A DNA stretch of 64,000 bases. It comes from Serpentinicella alkaliphila. GTDB taxonomy: Bacteria > Bacillota > Clostridia > Peptostreptococcales > Natronincolaceae. Positions 27,474-42,174 of the stretch are shown piece after piece. How positions within the stretch are numbered: position 1 is the first letter of the stretch; each line of letters opens with the position of its first letter. The notes beneath the pieces are model-generated. The model saw only the letters and a program-made list of their open reading frames with translations, was not told the origin of the DNA and ran no database searches. The stretch spans positions 1,565,001-1,629,000 of the forward strand of contig NZ_CP058648.1 in NCBI RefSeq assembly GCF_018141405.1, read 5' to 3'. The position numbers were made by a program, and so were the translations under genes.

Positions 27474-28541
27474 ATGCTCAAAATTAAAACCTCAGCAATA
27501 ATGACGGGCATGAAATTGTCCAAATCTATCTTCAATAGAGATGGACAACTTTTAATAGAAAATGGTTCTACCTTAAAGGAAAGCTATATTAAAAAGCTTG
27601 TATACTACGATATTGATAATGTATATATTAACTGGGATAGTGATGTTTCACCAGAGGTAGCTGACGCAATAGTATTAGATACTAAAAATGAAGCTATGAG
27701 GGTTTTAAAAGATTCCTTCAAAGAGATTCAAGTTTCAAAAAATGTTGATATTGATAGATTAAACGAGCTAGTTGGAAGTATTATAGAAGAGCTTCTTGAC
27801 AAGAAAGGAACTTTAATAAATCTAACAAACATTAGGTCTATAGATGACTATACATTTACACATTCTATTAATGTATGTATTTTATCCTTAGTTATGGGAC
27901 TCGCCTTAAATTATGAAAAAGAACAATTAGAATACTTAGGAATTGGTTCCTTATTGCATGATATTGGCAAGGTAGGTATAGAGCCTAGTATATTGAATAA
28001 ACCAGGGTCTTTAACAATAGATGAATTCGATATTGTTAAAAATCATGCAATTATTGGTTACGATATGGTTAAATATATAGATGGAATATCTGAGGAATCC
28101 GTAACAATAATTAGAGATCATCATGAGCGTTATGATGGAAAAGGTTATCCTAACGGGAAAAAAGGAAATGAGATTCATGAATTTGCAAGGATTGTTGCAG
28201 TTTGTGATGTATATGATGCTTTAACATCAAATCGTGTATATAGATTGGGTATGCCGCCACATATAGGCATAGAATATTTATTAAGTATGGCAAATCATCA
28301 ATTTGATGAAGGGTTAGTAAAACTATTTACAAAATATATTTCTATTTATCCTAAAGGAACTGTCGTTGAATTAGAATCGGGGGATAGGGGAATAGTAGTT
28401 GACCAAAATGAATGCTTACCTACTCGTCCAGTAATAGAAGTTATTTATGATATAACGGGAAATAAACTAGGAGTACCAAAAATTGTTGACTTGGCAAAGA
28501 ACTTAAATAATGGGATAATTTCTAAGTTAGGAATAATATAA
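27474..28541 (+). CDS. HD-GYP domain protein, probable c-di-GMP phosphodiesterase
   Basis: 355 aa. An N-terminal DUF3391-like segment (about 1-110) is followed by an HD-GYP domain: HSINVCI, HDIGK, then HHERYDGKGYP, that is, the full HD and GYP signature including metal ligands. The family hydrolyses c-di-GMP to pGpG or GMP. A C-terminal extension of about 60 residues follows the domain. No receiver or PAS domain is visible, so input is unknown. The RBS is AAGGGGGGG. Together with the PilZ protein and five c-di-GMP riboswitches it places c-di-GMP signalling firmly in this genome. Confidence 0.9.
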   Translation: MLKIKTSAIMTGMKLSKSIFNRDGQLLIENGSTLKESYIKKLVYYDIDNVYINWDSDVSPEVADAIVLDTKNEAMRVLKDSFKEIQVSKNVDIDRLNELVGSIIEELLDKKGTLINLTNIRSIDDYTFTHSINVCILSLVMGLALNYEKEQLEYLGIGSLLHDIGKVGIEPSILNKPGSLTIDEFDIVKNHAIIGYDMVKYIDGISEESVTIIRDHHERYDGKGYPNGKKGNEIHEFARIVAVCDVYDALTSNRVYRLGMPPHIGIEYLLSMANHQFDEGLVKLFTKYISIYPKGTVVELESGDRGIVVDQNECLPTRPVIEVIYDITGNKLGVPKIVDLAKNLNNGIISKLGII

Positions 28542-35268: not shown

Positions 35269-35664
35269 ATGCTTTTTAAATTAATGCTTTTATTTACCGT
35301 TGTACCTATTGTTGAACTGATGATCCTATTCAGGCTAGGTCAGTATATTGGTTTCCAATATACAATAATCATTGTGTTGGTAACTGGCGTTGTAGGGGCG
35401 TTTTTATCAAAAAGTGAAGGCAAAGGTATAATTAGAAGAATTAAACTTGACCTTAGTAATGGAAGGGTTCCAGCGGATGAATTGATTAATGGATTATGTG
35501 TGATTGTAGGTGGGGCTATGCTACTAACTCCTGGAATATTAACAGATACAGTTGGATTTATACTAGTAATTAGTCCGACAAGACAGGTAATTATAGCTAC
35601 TATAAAGAGGAAAATTAAGAATATGATTCATGAAGGTACGCTTCACTTCTATTTTAGAAAATAA
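35269..35664 (+). CDS. fxsA: FxsA family membrane protein
   Basis: 131 aa with hydrophobic helices at about 3-22, 26-48 and 78-100. The family phrases PIVELMILFRLGQYIG and GGAMLLTPGILTDTVGF are clear. FxsA was named for suppressing F exclusion of phage T7 in E. coli; its physiological role is unknown. It is a single-gene unit behind GTAGAGGTGG and is the last core gene before the c-di-GMP-controlled surface locus. Confidence 0.9.
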   Translation: MLFKLMLLFTVVPIVELMILFRLGQYIGFQYTIIIVLVTGVVGAFLSKSEGKGIIRRIKLDLSNGRVPADELINGLCVIVGGAMLLTPGILTDTVGFILVISPTRQVIIATIKRKIKNMIHEGTLHFYFRK

Positions 35665-35753: not shown

Positions 35754-35781
35754 GAGCACATATATTGTGCTCTCTTTTTTT
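35754..35781 (+). terminator. Terminator after fxsA
   Basis: GAGCACA / TGTGCTC (35754-35760, 35766-35772) followed by TCTTTTTTT. Confidence 0.85.
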
Positions 35782-36028
35782 GTGTCTTTATTCTTTGAAA
35801 TATAATCATATATAAGCTCCTTAAAGAATGATAAAGGATATAAAAAATATACATAAAAAAACTAAAAATATGATAGATATCAATTAAAAGGTGGTATTAA
35901 TAAAAATATAATATAAGCATATGAATAGTTATATAAGATATTAAAGTGGTTAATAATATAGCTTAAAATAATTAGTATATATTGTAGTATGAGTAAATGA
36001 TATGACAAAATAATGAATGACACAAAAG

Positions 36029-36124
36029 ACTTTTCTCCGAAATGGCAAACCATTGGAAACAACGGGACGCAAAGCTACAGGCCTAATCGATTAGTATTGC
36101 AGCTGAGCTACCGAAGGGAAAGGT
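36029..36124 (+). promoter_or_regulatory. c-di-GMP-I (GEMM-I) riboswitch, first aptamer of the adhesin leader
   Basis: Class I hallmarks in order: GGCAAACC, a GNRA-type GGAAAC loop, GGGACGCAAAGC, AGGCCTAA, then GAGCTACCGAA. P1 is ACTTTTCTC (36029-36037) with GGGAAAGGT (36116-36124). TTTTTATTAT follows P1 directly, as after the other two class I aptamers in this window. P2 has one A-C mismatch. It lies about 330 nt before the adhesin start, on the same strand and with no gene between. No intrinsic terminator with a compact stem is obvious, so its expression platform is unclear. Confidence 0.9.
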
Positions 36125-36178
36125 TTTTATTATAACTAATCAAATAATCTTTAAACTAGGGGGGTGGGCTAGTATCAG

Positions 36179-36231
36179 GTGACAGTATGGTGATTACATA
36201 TACACATTTCTTTTGTCGGACATACTATCAC
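36179..36231 (+). other. Large imperfect hairpin between the class I and class II aptamers
   Basis: GTGACAGTATG (36179-36189) pairs with CATACTATCAC (36221-36231), 10 of 11 positions, around a 31-nt loop. There is no T-run. It may be a spacer or part of the GEMM-I expression platform. Confidence 0.4.
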
Positions 36232-36260
36232 ACAAAGGATAATAGAATGATGTAGTTGTC

Positions 36261-36337
36261 AAAAAGGAAGCTATGAAACGTACTTTGTATTTGGGCACTT
36301 TAAGTACGGGGAGCGAGTAGTGCAACCGACCTTTCTT
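36261..36337 (+). promoter_or_regulatory. c-di-GMP-II riboswitch, aptamer 1
   Basis: Matches the class II aptamer: CTATGAA, TTGGGCACTT, a hairpin arm ending in AAGTACG, then GTAGTGCAACCGACC. GCACT in the loop can form the class II pseudoknot with AGTGC downstream. P1 is only 5 bp (AAAGG 36263-36267 with CCTTT 36330-36334). Its 3' arm CCTTTCTT can alternatively pair perfectly with the 5' P1 arm of aptamer 2. Confidence 0.92.
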
Positions 36338-36344
36338 GATTAGT

Positions 36345-36424
36345 AAGAAAGGGATGCTATGAAGTACACCTTTCACATGGGCACTTGAGGTTGTATGGAG
36401 CAAGTAGTGCAACCGACCTTTCTT
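36345..36424 (+). promoter_or_regulatory. c-di-GMP-II riboswitch, aptamer 2
   Basis: Second tandem class II aptamer: CTATGAAGTACACC, ATGGGCACTTGAGG, then AAGTAGTGCAACCGACC. P1 is a perfect 8 bp (AAGAAAGG 36345-36352 with CCTTTCTT 36417-36424). The 3' arm of this P1 can instead pair with AAAGAGAGG (36439-36447), which includes the start of the adhesin Shine-Dalgarno. Ligand binding should therefore free the ribosome site. Confidence 0.93.
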
Positions 36425-36457
36425 TAGACGAATTGTTTAAAGAGAGGAGAGAGATGT
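36417..36457 (+). promoter_or_regulatory. Shine-Dalgarno switch of the adhesin gene
   Basis: CCTTTCTTT (36417-36425) and AAAGAGAGG (36439-36447) are complementary over 9 positions with one G-T pair and a 13-nt loop. The second element overlaps the purine-rich ribosome site (36441-36453) before the ATG at 36458. This hairpin competes with P1 of aptamer 2. Confidence 0.75.
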
Positions 36458-38095
36458 ATGAGAAAGAATAAATCAATTATCAAATCTATGTTAGCAGTAA
36501 TTATGACTTTAATTCTAACATTTGGTAGTACACTAAGCGTATTGGCTGCTAGTCCAACTTTGATCATTAGAAAAAATTGGAGTTGGCAGGAAGGAACATT
36601 CAAAATAAATGGTGTACCACAGGAAGGAATATATGAAATGTTCTCTGGAGAAACTTCGCCAGGCAATTTTAATGCTCCTTTCGGTAAAACAGTAATTGGG
36701 ACAGTGTATATGCAAAATACTACAAGTCAACAGTTTGATTGGTCTTTAATCTCAGGACCCCCAATTTCTAGAATTTGGGTGAAGGGTGGACCTAACGCTC
36801 TAGAATATGATTATGGAAGTGGAGCAACTAGTGGGTTTGGGCTAGTAGCACCAGACAACAAAGATATAAGTCATGTTGTTTTCTTCTTTGGGCAAACACC
36901 GGTAGATGACGATGATGATGATTCTCCTGCAATTATTTTTGTAGAAAACTCGGAAGGGCAACTGGTATCCATCTACACTATTTCGGGCTTCAAGTTTGAA
37001 GAAATAACTGGTGAAACAAATAAACCTTTGGAGGATTGGAAAATCATACTCACAGGACCTGGAGAAATAAAACACGAAACTCAGACAAATGAAGACGGCA
37101 AATATCAATTCACTTTGAATAATGCTCCAACGGGAACTTACATTGTAACAGAAGAAATCCCTAGTGGATGGCAGAATATAACTGAATTATCTCAAACTAT
37201 TAATTTAGGATCTGGACTCTATACTATACCTTACGAAAAAGGAACACTACAGCTGGGGTTAGATCAAAATATGACAAGTATATTTACTGAAACATTTGTA
37301 GCTGAAGGTAGAATAGGAGATCTTGGTGGAAACGCAACCCATGAAATTAATATTCATACGCCAAATCAAGGCTCTGTTCAGTCACAAGGAAACTTTAGCT
37401 GGGCAAATGGTGGAGAAAAAGTACCTTTCGAATTAAGATACGATAATGGTCTAGTTAGTTTTACGGTAGGTAACGCAGGTACCTTGACCTACAGTACAGG
37501 CGAATCAGTTAAAGATATTGTCATACGGACAAGAGCCACGAAACCTGATTCTGGAATAAAAATCTCAGATATTGTATTAAACGGAGAAAGCATTTCTGAG
37601 ACATCTGTAGCTATTGGAAACGGAGTGGGTGTCGGAAATCTATGGATTAGAGGATATAATTTGGATAATGGATTTATATTAACTGGAAACTCCCAAATGT
37701 ACTGGGACGCAAACTCAATTCCGACTAATTCACAACTTGCATTCCAAATAAAAGTAGGAGAGGCAGAACGAGTAAATGAATCCTATCAAATTGATTTTGT
37801 TAATAAACGGCTACAAGTGGTTGATCCTCCGGTAGTTGATCCTCCGGTAGTTGATCCTCCGGTAGTTGATCCTCTTGATCCAATAATAGATTTATTAGAT
37901 GAAGAAATCCCATTAGCAATAGTAGACTTTGATATAGATGGTGATGACGAGGAAGAATTGATTCTTTTAGATGAAGAAATTCCTCTTGGAATAGTTACAT
38001 TACCAAAAACAGGGGAAATAAATCCATTAGAGTTTGTGATTTTCGGATTACTACTTGCAGTAGTTGGATTTAAATTAAGAAAAGAATCGATCTAA
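36458..38095 (+). CDS. Sortase-anchored surface adhesin with Cna-B domain (LPKTG)
   Basis: 545 aa. Signal peptide at 1-30 (cleavage around VLA-AS), an N-terminal beta-rich domain (about 32-155) resembling the ISHVVFFFG module of clostridial surface proteins, an acidic DDDDDDS linker, a SpaA/Cna-B domain (about 176-265: LEDWKIILTGPGE, NEDGKYQFTL, GTYIVTEEIPSGW), another beta domain (about 280-430), a VVDPP repeat, two copies of LDEEIPL flanking an acidic stretch, then the sorting signal LPKTG at 515-519 with a hydrophobic helix and RKESI tail. It would be covalently fixed to peptidoglycan. The sortase gene follows at 65 bp. The leader carries three c-di-GMP aptamers, so expression should follow c-di-GMP. 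The start ATG 36458 is 8 nt after GGAG; ATG 36454 is out of frame. Confidence 0.9.
   Translation: MRKNKSIIKSMLAVIMTLILTFGSTLSVLAASPTLIIRKNWSWQEGTFKINGVPQEGIYEMFSGETSPGNFNAPFGKTVIGTVYMQNTTSQQFDWSLISGPPISRIWVKGGPNALEYDYGSGATSGFGLVAPDNKDISHVVFFFGQTPVDDDDDDSPAIIFVENSEGQLVSIYTISGFKFEEITGETNKPLEDWKIILTGPGEIKHETQTNEDGKYQFTLNNAPTGTYIVTEEIPSGWQNITELSQTINLGSGLYTIPYEKGTLQLGLDQNMTSIFTETFVAEGRIGDLGGNATHEINIHTPNQGSVQSQGNFSWANGGEKVPFELRYDNGLVSFTVGNAGTLTYSTGESVKDIVIRTRATKPDSGIKISDIVLNGESISETSVAIGNGVGVGNLWIRGYNLDNGFILTGNSQMYWDANSIPTNSQLAFQIKVGEAERVNESYQIDFVNKRLQVVDPPVVDPPVVDPPVVDPLDPIIDLLDEEIPLAIVDFDIDGDDEEELILLDEEIPLGIVTLPKTGEINPLEFVIFGLLLAVVGFKLRKESI
37821..37873 (+). repeat. 15-bp tandem repeat coding VVDPP
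   Basis: TTGATCCTCCGGTAG is repeated three times without change (37821-37865) with a partial fourth copy. It encodes a proline-rich stalk just before the cell-wall anchor and is a likely site of length variation. Confidence 0.9.
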
Positions 38096-38964: not shown

Positions 38965-40677
38965 TTATCTTTTCGTATCTTTAAAAATATTTTTCATATG
39001 TGTGTTTTTTATTATTTGATAATCCGTTCTGAAGCCAAAAGCCTCATGAAGTGCATCTGTAAAATCTGTGCGTGTGTAAGTTGGAATATAGCCATCGCCA
39101 AGGATTTCATAAAAATTCATACCCCTTAACTCTCGTATGATTTCAGTACAGGTGAACTTGTTATCTAAGTGTTTTTCAAGATATCTATAAAGCACCATTG
39201 CCAAGAAACAAGTTGTAAAGTGTGCTTCTATACGATCATCTCTTGTTAAGTACACTGGTCTTGCCTTAAATTCACTTTTCATAATTCTAAAGCATTCTTC
39301 AATCTCCCAACGTTTATGATTAACTTTAATAATTTCAGAAGCTTCATCTTCTAAATTTGTGCATACAGCATAAAAACCATCATATGCCTCTTCTTTTGAT
39401 ATAATATCTGAATCCAGTCGATAGAGGTCCTTTTCTGCCACCTCACCATCTGATGTAACGCTTGTTTTTCCTATAAATCTTTTGTAATCGTTCTGATTAC
39501 ACTTGTTGAGTTTTGATGGATTGTTTTCTATTACCTTAACAGCACGCTCAATTTGTTTATTTCGAATTTTTCTTTGATAGTCTCTATATTTAATTGAATA
39601 AGTTACAATTAGCTTTTGTTCCAAACCATTTTCTTTAATCCATCGCTCTTTATAAAAAGTAATATCTGCAAAATTGTCTTCTTCAATATCAGAGATATCG
39701 AAAACCTTACTACTACCACTTAAACTCCATCCTTCGCTAGAAAGTGCCCATTCTTTAAGATGTTTTTTAAGTTTTTTGATTGACTGAGTGGTTATAAAAG
39801 CACGTCCACCTTGATCATTAAATTTCCTATTGTCATTTGACGCTAGTCCAGCATCTGTGCATACGACAAACTTTGAGAGTTTGAAATCATTAAGTATCTT
39901 CTGTTCTAAAGGCTTTAAAGTGAGCTGTTCATTAGTATTACCTTTAGTAATGCTAAATGCTAGTGGAATACCATCCCCATCCATAAAAAGACCCATTTGT
40001 ACGATAGGATTAGGTTTGTGTTCCTTTGAATACCCATACTGTTTTAAGCCTTGCTCTTGCTCAATCTCAAAGAAGTAATTCGTACAGTCATAATAAAGAA
40101 TTCCTGAATTACGCTTAGAAAGTTTATAACTATTATTATAAAGCTCCGATTGAATATAATCAGTTTCCTTAGAAATAACTTCAAGTGCTCTATAAATATG
40201 TTGAATATCAAAATCAGGTTTTTCTAAAAATCTAGTAGATAGGTTATAGGTGGAAAGCTTAGAACCAGGAAAGATAATCCTACCATATAAAAGTCTAGAT
40301 AGTATGGAGTCAAGATTAAAAGTGAATTTATGGCGATTGGAAATCTCTTTACAGATTTTGTGAATTCCTAGATCATGATAAATCTTTTGAAGAAATAGAT
40401 AGCCTCCATTAAAAGACTGTTGCTTATCTTTACCAATAAGTTTTGTAGGCGAGTATTGAACCATGATTGTACTATTTTCTTCTTTTTCTTTTTTATTAAG
40501 TTCATCGATATATTTCTTAGCCCATTCAATAGGGTCTTCCCCGTTTAATTTGTTAAGAAGCTCATCATATGTACCTAGTTTTTCAACAATTTTAGTAGTA
40601 CGCTTATTTTTTTCAATTATATCCTTTATCACATAAAGTGAAGTAGCATTTTTAGATTTAGAAAGTGATAATCTCAT
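38965..40677 (-). CDS. IS1634-family transposase
   Basis: 570 aa, full length and uninterrupted. A DDE transposase of the IS4 superfamily: YYDCTNYFFEIE (first Asp), VVCTDAGLASNDNRKF (second Asp) and, near the C-terminus, HKRWEIEECFRIMKSEF (Glu, Y/W-2-R/E signature). GGGGGTG precedes the ATG at 40677 on the minus strand. As the gene is intact and the flanking repeats are almost identical, the insertion is probably recent. Confidence 0.93.
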   Translation of the reverse strand: MRLSLSKSKNATSLYVIKDIIEKNKRTTKIVEKLGTYDELLNKLNGEDPIEWAKKYIDELNKKEKEENSTIMVQYSPTKLIGKDKQQSFNGGYLFLQKIYHDLGIHKICKEISNRHKFTFNLDSILSRLLYGRIIFPGSKLSTYNLSTRFLEKPDFDIQHIYRALEVISKETDYIQSELYNNSYKLSKRNSGILYYDCTNYFFEIEQEQGLKQYGYSKEHKPNPIVQMGLFMDGDGIPLAFSITKGNTNEQLTLKPLEQKILNDFKLSKFVVCTDAGLASNDNRKFNDQGGRAFITTQSIKKLKKHLKEWALSSEGWSLSGSSKVFDISDIEEDNFADITFYKERWIKENGLEQKLIVTYSIKYRDYQRKIRNKQIERAVKVIENNPSKLNKCNQNDYKRFIGKTSVTSDGEVAEKDLYRLDSDIISKEEAYDGFYAVCTNLEDEASEIIKVNHKRWEIEECFRIMKSEFKARPVYLTRDDRIEAHFTTCFLAMVLYRYLEKHLDNKFTCTEIIRELRGMNFYEILGDGYIPTYTRTDFTDALHEAFGFRTDYQIIKNTHMKNIFKDTKR

Positions 40678-41147: not shown

Positions 41148-41250
41148 AACTTGTCAACGACAATAGCAAACCATTCGAAAGGATGGGACGCAAAGCTATA
41201 GGGCCTAAAGCACATAGTGCAATGGTAGCCAAGCCACCGAACGGGAAGTT
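41148..41250 (+). promoter_or_regulatory. c-di-GMP-I riboswitch, first of tandem pair
   Basis: Class I hallmarks: AGCAAACC, TTCGAAAGGA loop, GGGACGCAAAGC, AGGGCCTAA, then GGTAGCCAAGCCACCGAA. P1 pairs AACTTGTC (41148-41155) with GGGAAGTT (41243-41250), one mismatch. A TTTTTGTTATT tract follows. Confidence 0.95.
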
Positions 41251-41277
41251 TTTGTTATTATAAAATAGAATATATTT

Positions 41278-41296
41278 GGTGAAAAAGCTTTTCACC
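41278..41296 (+). promoter_or_regulatory. Anti-P1 hairpin between the tandem class I aptamers
   Basis: GGTGAAAA (41278-41285) and TTTTCACC (41289-41296) form a perfect 8-bp stem with a 3-nt loop. The right arm is the same CTTTTC that pairs with the Shine-Dalgarno in P1 of the second aptamer, so the two structures exclude each other. Confidence 0.75.
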
Positions 41297-41390
41297 GATA
41301 AAGGCAAACCACTCGAAAGGGTGGGACGCAAAGCCATAGGGCCTAACGCATTTAATGCTAAGGCAGCCGTGTTACCGAAGGAGGAGTTTT
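41282..41390 (+). promoter_or_regulatory. c-di-GMP-I riboswitch, second of tandem pair, P1 contains the Shine-Dalgarno
   Basis: Class I hallmarks: GGCAAACC, CTCGAAAGGG loop, GGGACGCAAAGCC, AGGGCCTAA, GCAGCCGTGTTACCGAA. P1 pairs AAAAA-g-CTTTTC (41282-41293) with GAGGAG-TTTTT (41381-41390 and on). GGAGGAG at 41380-41386 is the ribosome site of the gene starting at 41395. Ligand-stabilised P1 should block translation. Confidence 0.92.
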
Positions 41391-41394
41391 TATT

Positions 41395-42174
41395 ATGAAA
41401 AAAAGTATATTTATTATCGCATTACTTTTTATGCTTTCAGCAAACAGTGTTTTGGGACAAGCTGTTATAAATATTAGTAACTTAGGAAATGGTATGCTAG
41501 TTGTAAATAGTAACAGTATAGATAATAAAGACGTACGTGTTTTGGTTGAAAAGGGACAAGCTCGTTATCAATATAACATAAAAGAAAAAGAAACAAGAAT
41601 ACCACTACAAATGGGAATTGGCTCATATCAAGTAAGTGTAGTAGAGAATGTTGGCGGAAATAGATTTAAAGTTATTTCAAAAGAAACAGTAAATGTAAAT
41701 TCAATAGATGAAACAAATTTATTTCTTAGTTCAATACAGATGGTTAACTGGGATCAATCAATGAAGGCAGTACAAAAAGCTCAAGAATTAACAAAAGGAC
41801 TAAGTAACGATGAAGCAAAAGTAAAAGAAATTTATAACTATATAATAAATAATTTGGTCTATGATTTCGATAAAGTAGCTACTTTAACTTCTAATTATTT
41901 ACCAAATATAAATAAAATCTATGACGAAAACAAAGGCATTTGTTATGATTATTCATCTTTATTTGCAGGAATGTTAAGAAGTGTAGGAGTACCTACAAAA
42001 CTAGTAATGGGTTATGCTCCAAATGTGAATGAATACCATGCATGGAATGAAGTATATATTAATGGTAAGTGGGTAACAATAGACACTACTACAGATGCAG
42101 TATATAGACAAAATAATAGAAAATATGAGATGGCAAAAGATAAAAGCTTATTTAATGTAATGAAAGAATACTAA
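41395..42174 (+). CDS. Secreted transglutaminase-like (cysteine protease fold) protein
   Basis: 259 aa. Signal peptide at 1-22 (cleavage near VLG-QA), a beta-rich region to about residue 105, then a transglutaminase-like domain: catalytic Cys in NKGICYDYSSLF, His in EYHAWNEVY and Asp in WVTIDTTTD, so the triad is complete. Members of the superfamily act as peptidases or cross-linking enzymes on extracellular proteins. No anchor or SLH domain is seen, so it is likely released. Expression is controlled by two tandem class I c-di-GMP aptamers, with the second covering the ribosome site. Its neighbour is the adhesin-sortase operon. The substrate is unknown; the adhesin is an obvious candidate, by analogy with c-di-GMP-controlled surface proteolysis in C. 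difficile. Confidence 0.88.
   Translation: MKKSIFIIALLFMLSANSVLGQAVINISNLGNGMLVVNSNSIDNKDVRVLVEKGQARYQYNIKEKETRIPLQMGIGSYQVSVVENVGGNRFKVISKETVNVNSIDETNLFLSSIQMVNWDQSMKAVQKAQELTKGLSNDEAKVKEIYNYIINNLVYDFDKVATLTSNYLPNINKIYDENKGICYDYSSLFAGMLRSVGVPTKLVMGYAPNVNEYHAWNEVYINGKWVTIDTTTDAVYRQNNRKYEMAKDKSLFNVMKEY

Follow-up and report, generated by a model that had tools for sequence, protein, structure and literature searches.

Introduction

A survey of tandem riboswitches published in 2022 counted 347 doublets and 12 triplets for c-di-GMP-I, and 59 doublets and 9 triplets for c-di-GMP-II (PMC9481103). This survey lists no mixture of c-di-GMP-I and c-di-GMP-II, and its stacks of two classes for one ligand are SAM combinations only. 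A 2025 survey pooled both c-di-GMP classes as one family and reported class I tandems before COG1305 genes (PMC12452182). In C. difficile, the class I riboswitches tested are OFF switches and the class II riboswitches are ON switches; of the seven class I genes that respond, one is up-regulated by c-di-GMP (PMC6200980).

In this study, we analysed a leader of Serpentinicella alkaliphila in which both classes precede the same gene. The author of an earlier note on this DNA knew of no described leader stacking the two classes, and no published report of a mixed I/II leader was found in the main texts, mostly of open-access papers, that were searched.

Results

Three aptamers of two classes precede an adhesin gene

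The analysed DNA, hereafter the window, is a stretch of 64 kb. It was searched by cmscan with Rfam 15, for which the gathering cut-off of RF01786 is 53.5. The aptamers and the genes around them are as follows.

35754-35786, + strand: intrinsic terminator after fxsA, 7-pair stem then T-run
36034-36115, + strand: class I c-di-GMP aptamer (GEMM-I), RF01051, 69.1 bits, gathering cut-off 35
36258-36340, + strand: class II c-di-GMP aptamer 1, RF01786, 76.7 bits, E 3.2e-16
36343-36427, + strand: class II c-di-GMP aptamer 2, RF01786, 70.9 bits, E 1.3e-14
36445-36449, + strand: Shine-Dalgarno AGGAG, 8 bases 5' of the start codon
36458-38095, + strand: ORF of the putatively regulated gene, LPXTG-anchored adhesin, 545 aa
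38161-38787, + strand: sortase gene, PF04203, E 3.2e-34
41155-41379, + strand: class I tandem before the transglutaminase gene, the element type closest to the leader class I
41395-42174, + strand: gene of a transglutaminase-like protein, PF01841, E 3.7e-24

The earlier note had proposed three aptamers from two unrelated classes in one leader; the covariance models score all three above cut-off, and the coordinates it gave agree with the Rfam matches to 3-9 bases per end. The only other c-di-GMP aptamers in the window are the two copies of the class I tandem (41155-41241 and 41293-41379), about 5 kb downstream. Because the whole genome (3.26 Mb, one contig) has just seven aptamers of class I and three of class II, a cluster of three within 400 bases before one gene is not due to chance. 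Binding of c-di-GMP and control of expression by this leader are predicted from its sequence.

The variant model RF03167 also matched the leader class I aptamer (61.6 bits at 36035-36116, cut-off 59) and was favoured by cmscan. The pocket letters are canonical, the window having GACGCAAAG versus GACGCGAA in the RF03167 consensus. A variant with an altered ligand was dropped, as GACGCGAA in place of GACGCAAA is absent. When the sequence is read at the positions that we take, from the Vc2 structure, to contact the ligand, the G of GGCAAAC, the middle A of GACGCAAAG and the C of ACCGA are all in place.

Upstream of the leader lies fxsA (FxsA, PF04186), which ends at 35664, and the terminator that follows it would separate the leader from upstream transcription. 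The adhesin has a choice-of-anchor W domain (E 2.1e-45) and an LPXTG anchor above cut-off, and a SpaA-like match under the cut-off. The transglutaminase-like protein (a cysteine protease or cross-linker) is a possible partner of this adhesin.

Further features of the neighbourhood were observed. An IS transposase-like ORF, judged by reading, lies on the minus strand at 38965-40677 between the sortase and transglutaminase genes, and is missing from that place in the relatives read. At 27474-28541, 7.5 kb upstream of the leader, lies the gene of an HD-GYP-type protein with an HD_5 domain, which may be a c-di-GMP phosphodiesterase. Adhesins under mixed leaders carry the motif (D/E)EE(I/V)PL(G/A), often repeated, directly before LPKTG at their C-termini (window 36458-38095, L040 4546-8427, L041 4929-8738, L042 5441-7408), and the transglutaminase-like protein could recognise them at this motif.

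Mixed leaders recur in related genera

We searched for mixed leaders in the same family (20 genomes) and the same order (394 genomes, 110 with class II). The class II model R2 has a poor consensus structure underneath and works mainly by sequence. The I-II-II order of S. alkaliphila (linker 142 bases) was also found in Anaerovirgula multivorans (linker 230) and Geosporobacter ferrireducens (linker 153), and a I-II order in Alkaliphilus peptidifermentans (linker 189). In every I-II case, an LPKTG adhesin gene lies downstream, a sortase gene is close by, and a transglutaminase gene under class I control is found a few kb away.

In one reversed leader (L043 3722-5093, genome G019), class I follows class II at a distance of 133 bases. 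This leader precedes a secreted protein, and a nine-codon ORF (MIKYGLTNS) with a strong ribosome site lies between the two aptamers. A class II and class I pair 731 bases apart in another genome (G109, locus partly masked) was rejected: it belongs to two C. difficile-type adhesin/protease genes and not to one leader. The matches listed for a class-wide sample of 391 genomes, 51 of them with class II, added no mixed leader, and among the matches listed for about 160 class II-bearing genomes no mixed stack appeared beyond the five named genomes. The count of at least four I-II(-II) leaders and one reversed leader is a lower bound, positions having been compared by eye, so that weak or unlisted sites could be missed.

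Conservation differs sharply along the four I-II(-II) leaders. Mean pairwise identity is 0.66 for class I (0.27 when shuffled), 0.76 for the last class II aptamer with the Shine-Dalgarno (0.27 shuffled), and 0.62 for the 16 bases 3' of class I, which hold the P1 3' strand and U-tract (0.37 shuffled). The remaining linker is at the shuffled level:

36132-36257, + strand: linker without detectable conservation or promoter, mean identity over the four leaders 0.22 versus 0.23 shuffled, fold z = 0.50

Selection thus appears to maintain both aptamer blocks and not the linker, which argues against an accidental juxtaposition and against a conserved linker promoter.

A Shine-Dalgarno hairpin overlaps the last class II aptamer

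Two alternative pairings involve the P1 strands of the class II aptamers.

36330-36352, + strand: inter-aptamer helix CCUUUCUU/AAGAAAGG, cross helix -11.4 versus own P1 -7.6 kcal/mol; excludes both class II P1s
36417-36447, + strand: anti-Shine-Dalgarno hairpin CCUUUCUUUAGAC/GUUUAAAGAGAGG, 13 bp, -15.9 kcal/mol; excludes P1 of aptamer 2

The Shine-Dalgarno hairpin is present in all four leaders (13-16 pairs, -15.9 to -20.9 kcal/mol), with the common pattern CCUUUCUUU(A/G)-AC...GUUUAAAGA(G/A)AGG-AG 3' of the last class II aptamer. Its 5' arm is the P1 3' strand of that aptamer and its 3' arm takes in the first bases of the Shine-Dalgarno; no U-run follows it in any of the four. In a folding model that leaves out the class II pseudoknot, enforcing P1 of aptamer 2 raised the opening of the Shine-Dalgarno in the whole window leader from 0.19 to 0.80. 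A translational ON switch formed by the class II pair is well supported by these pairings and by the model. Without ligand, the CCUUUCUUU strand would pair with the Shine-Dalgarno; as ligand stabilises P1, this strand would be drawn into P1, so that the hairpin would be broken and the ribosome site freed for translation.

Both class II aptamers of the window share this one Shine-Dalgarno platform. The helix between the P1 3' strand of aptamer 1 and the P1 5' strand of aptamer 2 was found in all nine close-packed tandems of class II aptamers (nine genomes, gaps of -1 to 9 bases), and in each it is stronger (-8.6 to -12.5 kcal/mol) than aptamer 1's own P1 (-4.3 to -8.7 kcal/mol). Eight spaced tandem pairs (family f3) show no comparable helix excess, and most of these have U-runs of their own. 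The helix sequences co-vary (CCUUUCUU/AAGAAAGG versus CCUUUCC/GGAAAGG); some complementarity would also be expected from duplication alone.

Since the P1 3' strand of the first aptamer can pair with the P1 5' strand of the second, the two might open jointly and give a steeper response. Partition-function coupling is clearly negative, i.e. cooperative, in five genomes (G123, G120, G175, G067 and G160), about zero in the window and in Anaerovirgula (G010), and slightly positive in G127; among the few computable controls, none is clearly negative. For the window itself the value is -0.2, or +3.8 in a cruder model, and the need for both aptamers to be bound for the Shine-Dalgarno to open is model-dependent. 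Cooperativity of the window's own pair is thus unsupported by the partition function, though the strand-exchange helix is present, and because the modelled coupling is near zero there, cooperativity may be regarded as a lead and not as a result.

The class I stem ends in a U-tract

The class I aptamer of the leader is flanked by the following elements.

36030-36037, + strand: class I P1 5' arm CUUUUCUC, preceded by AAAAGA, which can pair with the U-tract
36116-36123, + strand: class I P1 3' arm GGGAAAGG
36124-36131, + strand: U-tract UUUUUAUU directly 3' of P1, proposed aptamer-stem terminator

A U-tract directly follows class I P1 in all four mixed leaders (UUUUUAUU in the window, UUUUUAUUUU, UUUUUUUU and UUUUUAUUUUUU in the others). 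The same feature is found in class I tandems, where the P1 of the first copy ends in a U-tract (at least 7 U in 8) in 29/34 cases, Paenibacillus included (AAAGC...GCUUUUUUU). In the last copy of transglutaminase tandems, the Shine-Dalgarno lies inside the P1 3' strand (GGAGGAGUUUUUAUUAUG in the window), and bound ligand should therefore hide it. Both designs of the transglutaminase tandems read as OFF. P1 arms of class I tandems match their own partners better than those of others (3/20000 permutations, kinship included); the arms of the four adhesin leaders alone show no significant covariation (4056/20000).

The window itself combines the two designs at 41155-42174, copy 1 having a terminator-like P1 and U-tract and copy 2 the Shine-Dalgarno within P1. 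The same two-level OFF arrangement is seen again in Paenibacillus and in many Clostridia.

A terminator made of P1 and the U-tract in the leader is plausible. For a terminator stem, P1 of the window is poor in G-C pairs, and the whole aptamer would form the loop; in Geosporobacter, P1 is interrupted. In a tree whose forks are partly weak, the class I aptamers of all four leaders are placed among transglutaminase-type elements. The Alkaliphilus (G007) leader aptamer stands beside its own first tandem copy (98/98) and the Geosporobacter aptamer falls among its own genus, and on these placements the leader class I appears to have been copied more than once or homogenised.

This kinship would suit a leftover copy of a transglutaminase leader, one that still binds ligand yet no longer controls the adhesin, as would the resemblance of U5AUU to an SD-U5AUU-AUG start region minus its AUG, of which the U-tract could be a relic. 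We nevertheless consider such a leftover unlikely, because it should not stay conserved beside a drifted linker: the aptamer and its P1/U-tract are kept in four genera, whereas identity in the linker next to them is down to the shuffled level.

In another reading, class I is also ON, and three successive ON checkpoints give a steep digital response; the earlier note had suggested that the leader could show steep ON behaviour. Stacks of a single class are frequent and are considered to make the response steeper (PMC9481103), and the one up-regulated gene among the seven responsive class I genes of C. difficile (PMC6200980) offers a precedent. In P1 of class I, the pyrimidine 5' arm UUUUCUCC has a complement in GGAGAGAG, which belongs to the Shine-Dalgarno region, and this arm could be an extra anti-Shine-Dalgarno strand, hidden upon ligand binding. 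However, enforcing class I P1 left the opening of the Shine-Dalgarno unchanged (0.19 to 0.19), the folds being independent. A scan of the window linker gave no terminator that class I P1 could prevent, and its class I relatives before the transglutaminase gene are designed as OFF switches. A common ON sign therefore seems rather improbable. An energetic interplay between the two classes was likewise rejected for the three leaders modelled, in which the coupling is -0.9 to 0.2 kcal/mol.

Candidate promoters lie upstream of class I

A possible promoter precedes the class I aptamer of the window:

35884-35912, + strand: possible promoter TTAAAA-17-TATAAT (weak), upstream of class I

Promoter-like sites are no more numerous in the searched window region than in shuffles. 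In each of the four leaders, the best consensus matches on the sense strand precede class I, among them TTTACA-17-TATAAT in Alkaliphilus (11/12 consensus letters) and TTGATT-17-TG-TAAAAT in Geosporobacter, with an extended -10. The consensus scan, the one method applied to this question, found no site in any of the four linkers. On the sense strand of 36124-36261, where a transcription start would have spoken against the earlier note, it likewise gave no sigma-70-like site. As site counts are near chance, this placement is suggestive, and we infer one transcript spanning all three aptamers.

Conserved linker structure or a hidden promoter was rejected, with identity at the shuffled level and fold z values of 0.50, -2.66, -0.84 and 0.89, mostly unremarkable. 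Each linker has a G-rich or Shine-Dalgarno-like stretch (GGGGGGUGGG, AGGAGGUG, GGAGGGGGGG; window 36157-36169, L040, L041, L042), for which no ORF or role was found in the four leaders. An imperfect dyad, GTGACAGTATG...CATACTATCAC, lies in the window linker at 36179-36233; at the matching place in Anaerovirgula there is a long hairpin that differs from it.

It is very unlikely that the locus makes a short RNA ending at class I (possibly a small RNA) and, separately, an adhesin mRNA starting just before class II: TTGTCG-19-GATAAT, seen by eye and with a spacing outside the usual 16-18, does end 14 bases before class II in the window, but the linkers of the four leaders are unconserved and hold no consensus site, and better promoters are found upstream of class I in Alkaliphilus and Geosporobacter.

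Discussion

Aptamer identity, conservation, strand complementarity and gene context were established directly, and from them we infer how the leader may work. Our main reading, to which we give a probability of about 0.5, is that it combines an OFF gate on transcription (class I) with an ON gate on translation (class II), both obeying one ligand. The single transcript would begin upstream of class I and run through all three aptamers. Class I would act co-transcriptionally: with c-di-GMP bound, P1 would be stable and, together with the adjoining U-tract, cause intrinsic termination. For RNAs that pass this point, the class II pair would open the ribosome site. Of the two gates, the Shine-Dalgarno hairpin is clear in 4/4 leaders and the P1/U-tract terminator is plausible.

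Opposing signs are more likely than a common ON, since this type of class I element is OFF at the transglutaminase locus and since C. difficile uses class I as OFF and class II as ON (PMC6200980). The earlier suggestion of a steep ON response or a wider range thus survives in part. A steep ON suits the class II pair, which shares one platform and can exchange strands; all three aptamers adding to one ON, or a widened range, does not fit a class I of the OFF type.

Because the same ligand would close one gate and open the other, the adhesin might be expressed at intermediate c-di-GMP, or in a pulse, as mRNA already made is translated upon a rise in c-di-GMP. Whether the output would be a band-pass at steady state or a pulse would depend on affinities and kinetics. 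Taken as a whole, a single-RNA incoherent feed-forward loop, in which the class I stem is the terminator and a coupled class II pair opens translation to give a band-pass or pulse of adhesin, is put forward tentatively and is more doubtful than the two opposing gates. If the signs do oppose, this leader would be a natural protein-free RNA with a non-monotonic response to one ligand, and would offer a reason for bacteria to keep two unrelated folds for the same messenger.

Published surveys contain stacks of one c-di-GMP class and stacks of two SAM classes, but no stack of two unrelated classes for c-di-GMP. The SAM-II/SAM-V and SAM-II/SAM-I-IV leaders (PMC9481103) likewise join aptamers of two classes that differ in structure and share one ligand, and in SAM-II/SAM-V the first element is transcriptional and the second translational, as proposed here. 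SAM-II and SAM-V are both OFF and bind their ligand alike, whereas the mixed leader has two unrelated folds for c-di-GMP, probably of opposite sign.

Several aptamers before one surface-protein gene are also found in tandem c-di-GMP-I and -II systems (PMC9481103) and in the triple class I array Bc3-5 of Bacillus thuringiensis (PMC4759541), and known c-di-GMP-II tandems precede surface anchor proteins, as here (PMC9481103). Each of these is of a single class, in contrast to the mixed leader of the window. Moreover, tandem c-di-GMP-II riboswitches were classed as multiple-platform systems (PMC9481103), whereas the window pair shares one Shine-Dalgarno platform.

Another parallel is the pairing in C. 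difficile of the class II ON adhesins CD2831/CD3246 with the class I OFF protease ZmpI/PPEP-1 (PMC6200980, PMC11477304). There, as here, class II precedes sortase-anchored adhesins and class I a nearby enzyme gene; however, the C. difficile classes sit on different genes, while in the mixed leaders both precede the adhesin and the neighbouring enzyme is transglutaminase-like. Tandem c-di-GMP-I riboswitches before yebA/COG1305 transglutaminase-like genes of Bacillota (PMC12452182) are of the same kind as the locus at 41155-42174. Those loci carry class I only, whereas the adhesin leader has placed a related class I aptamer before a class II pair.
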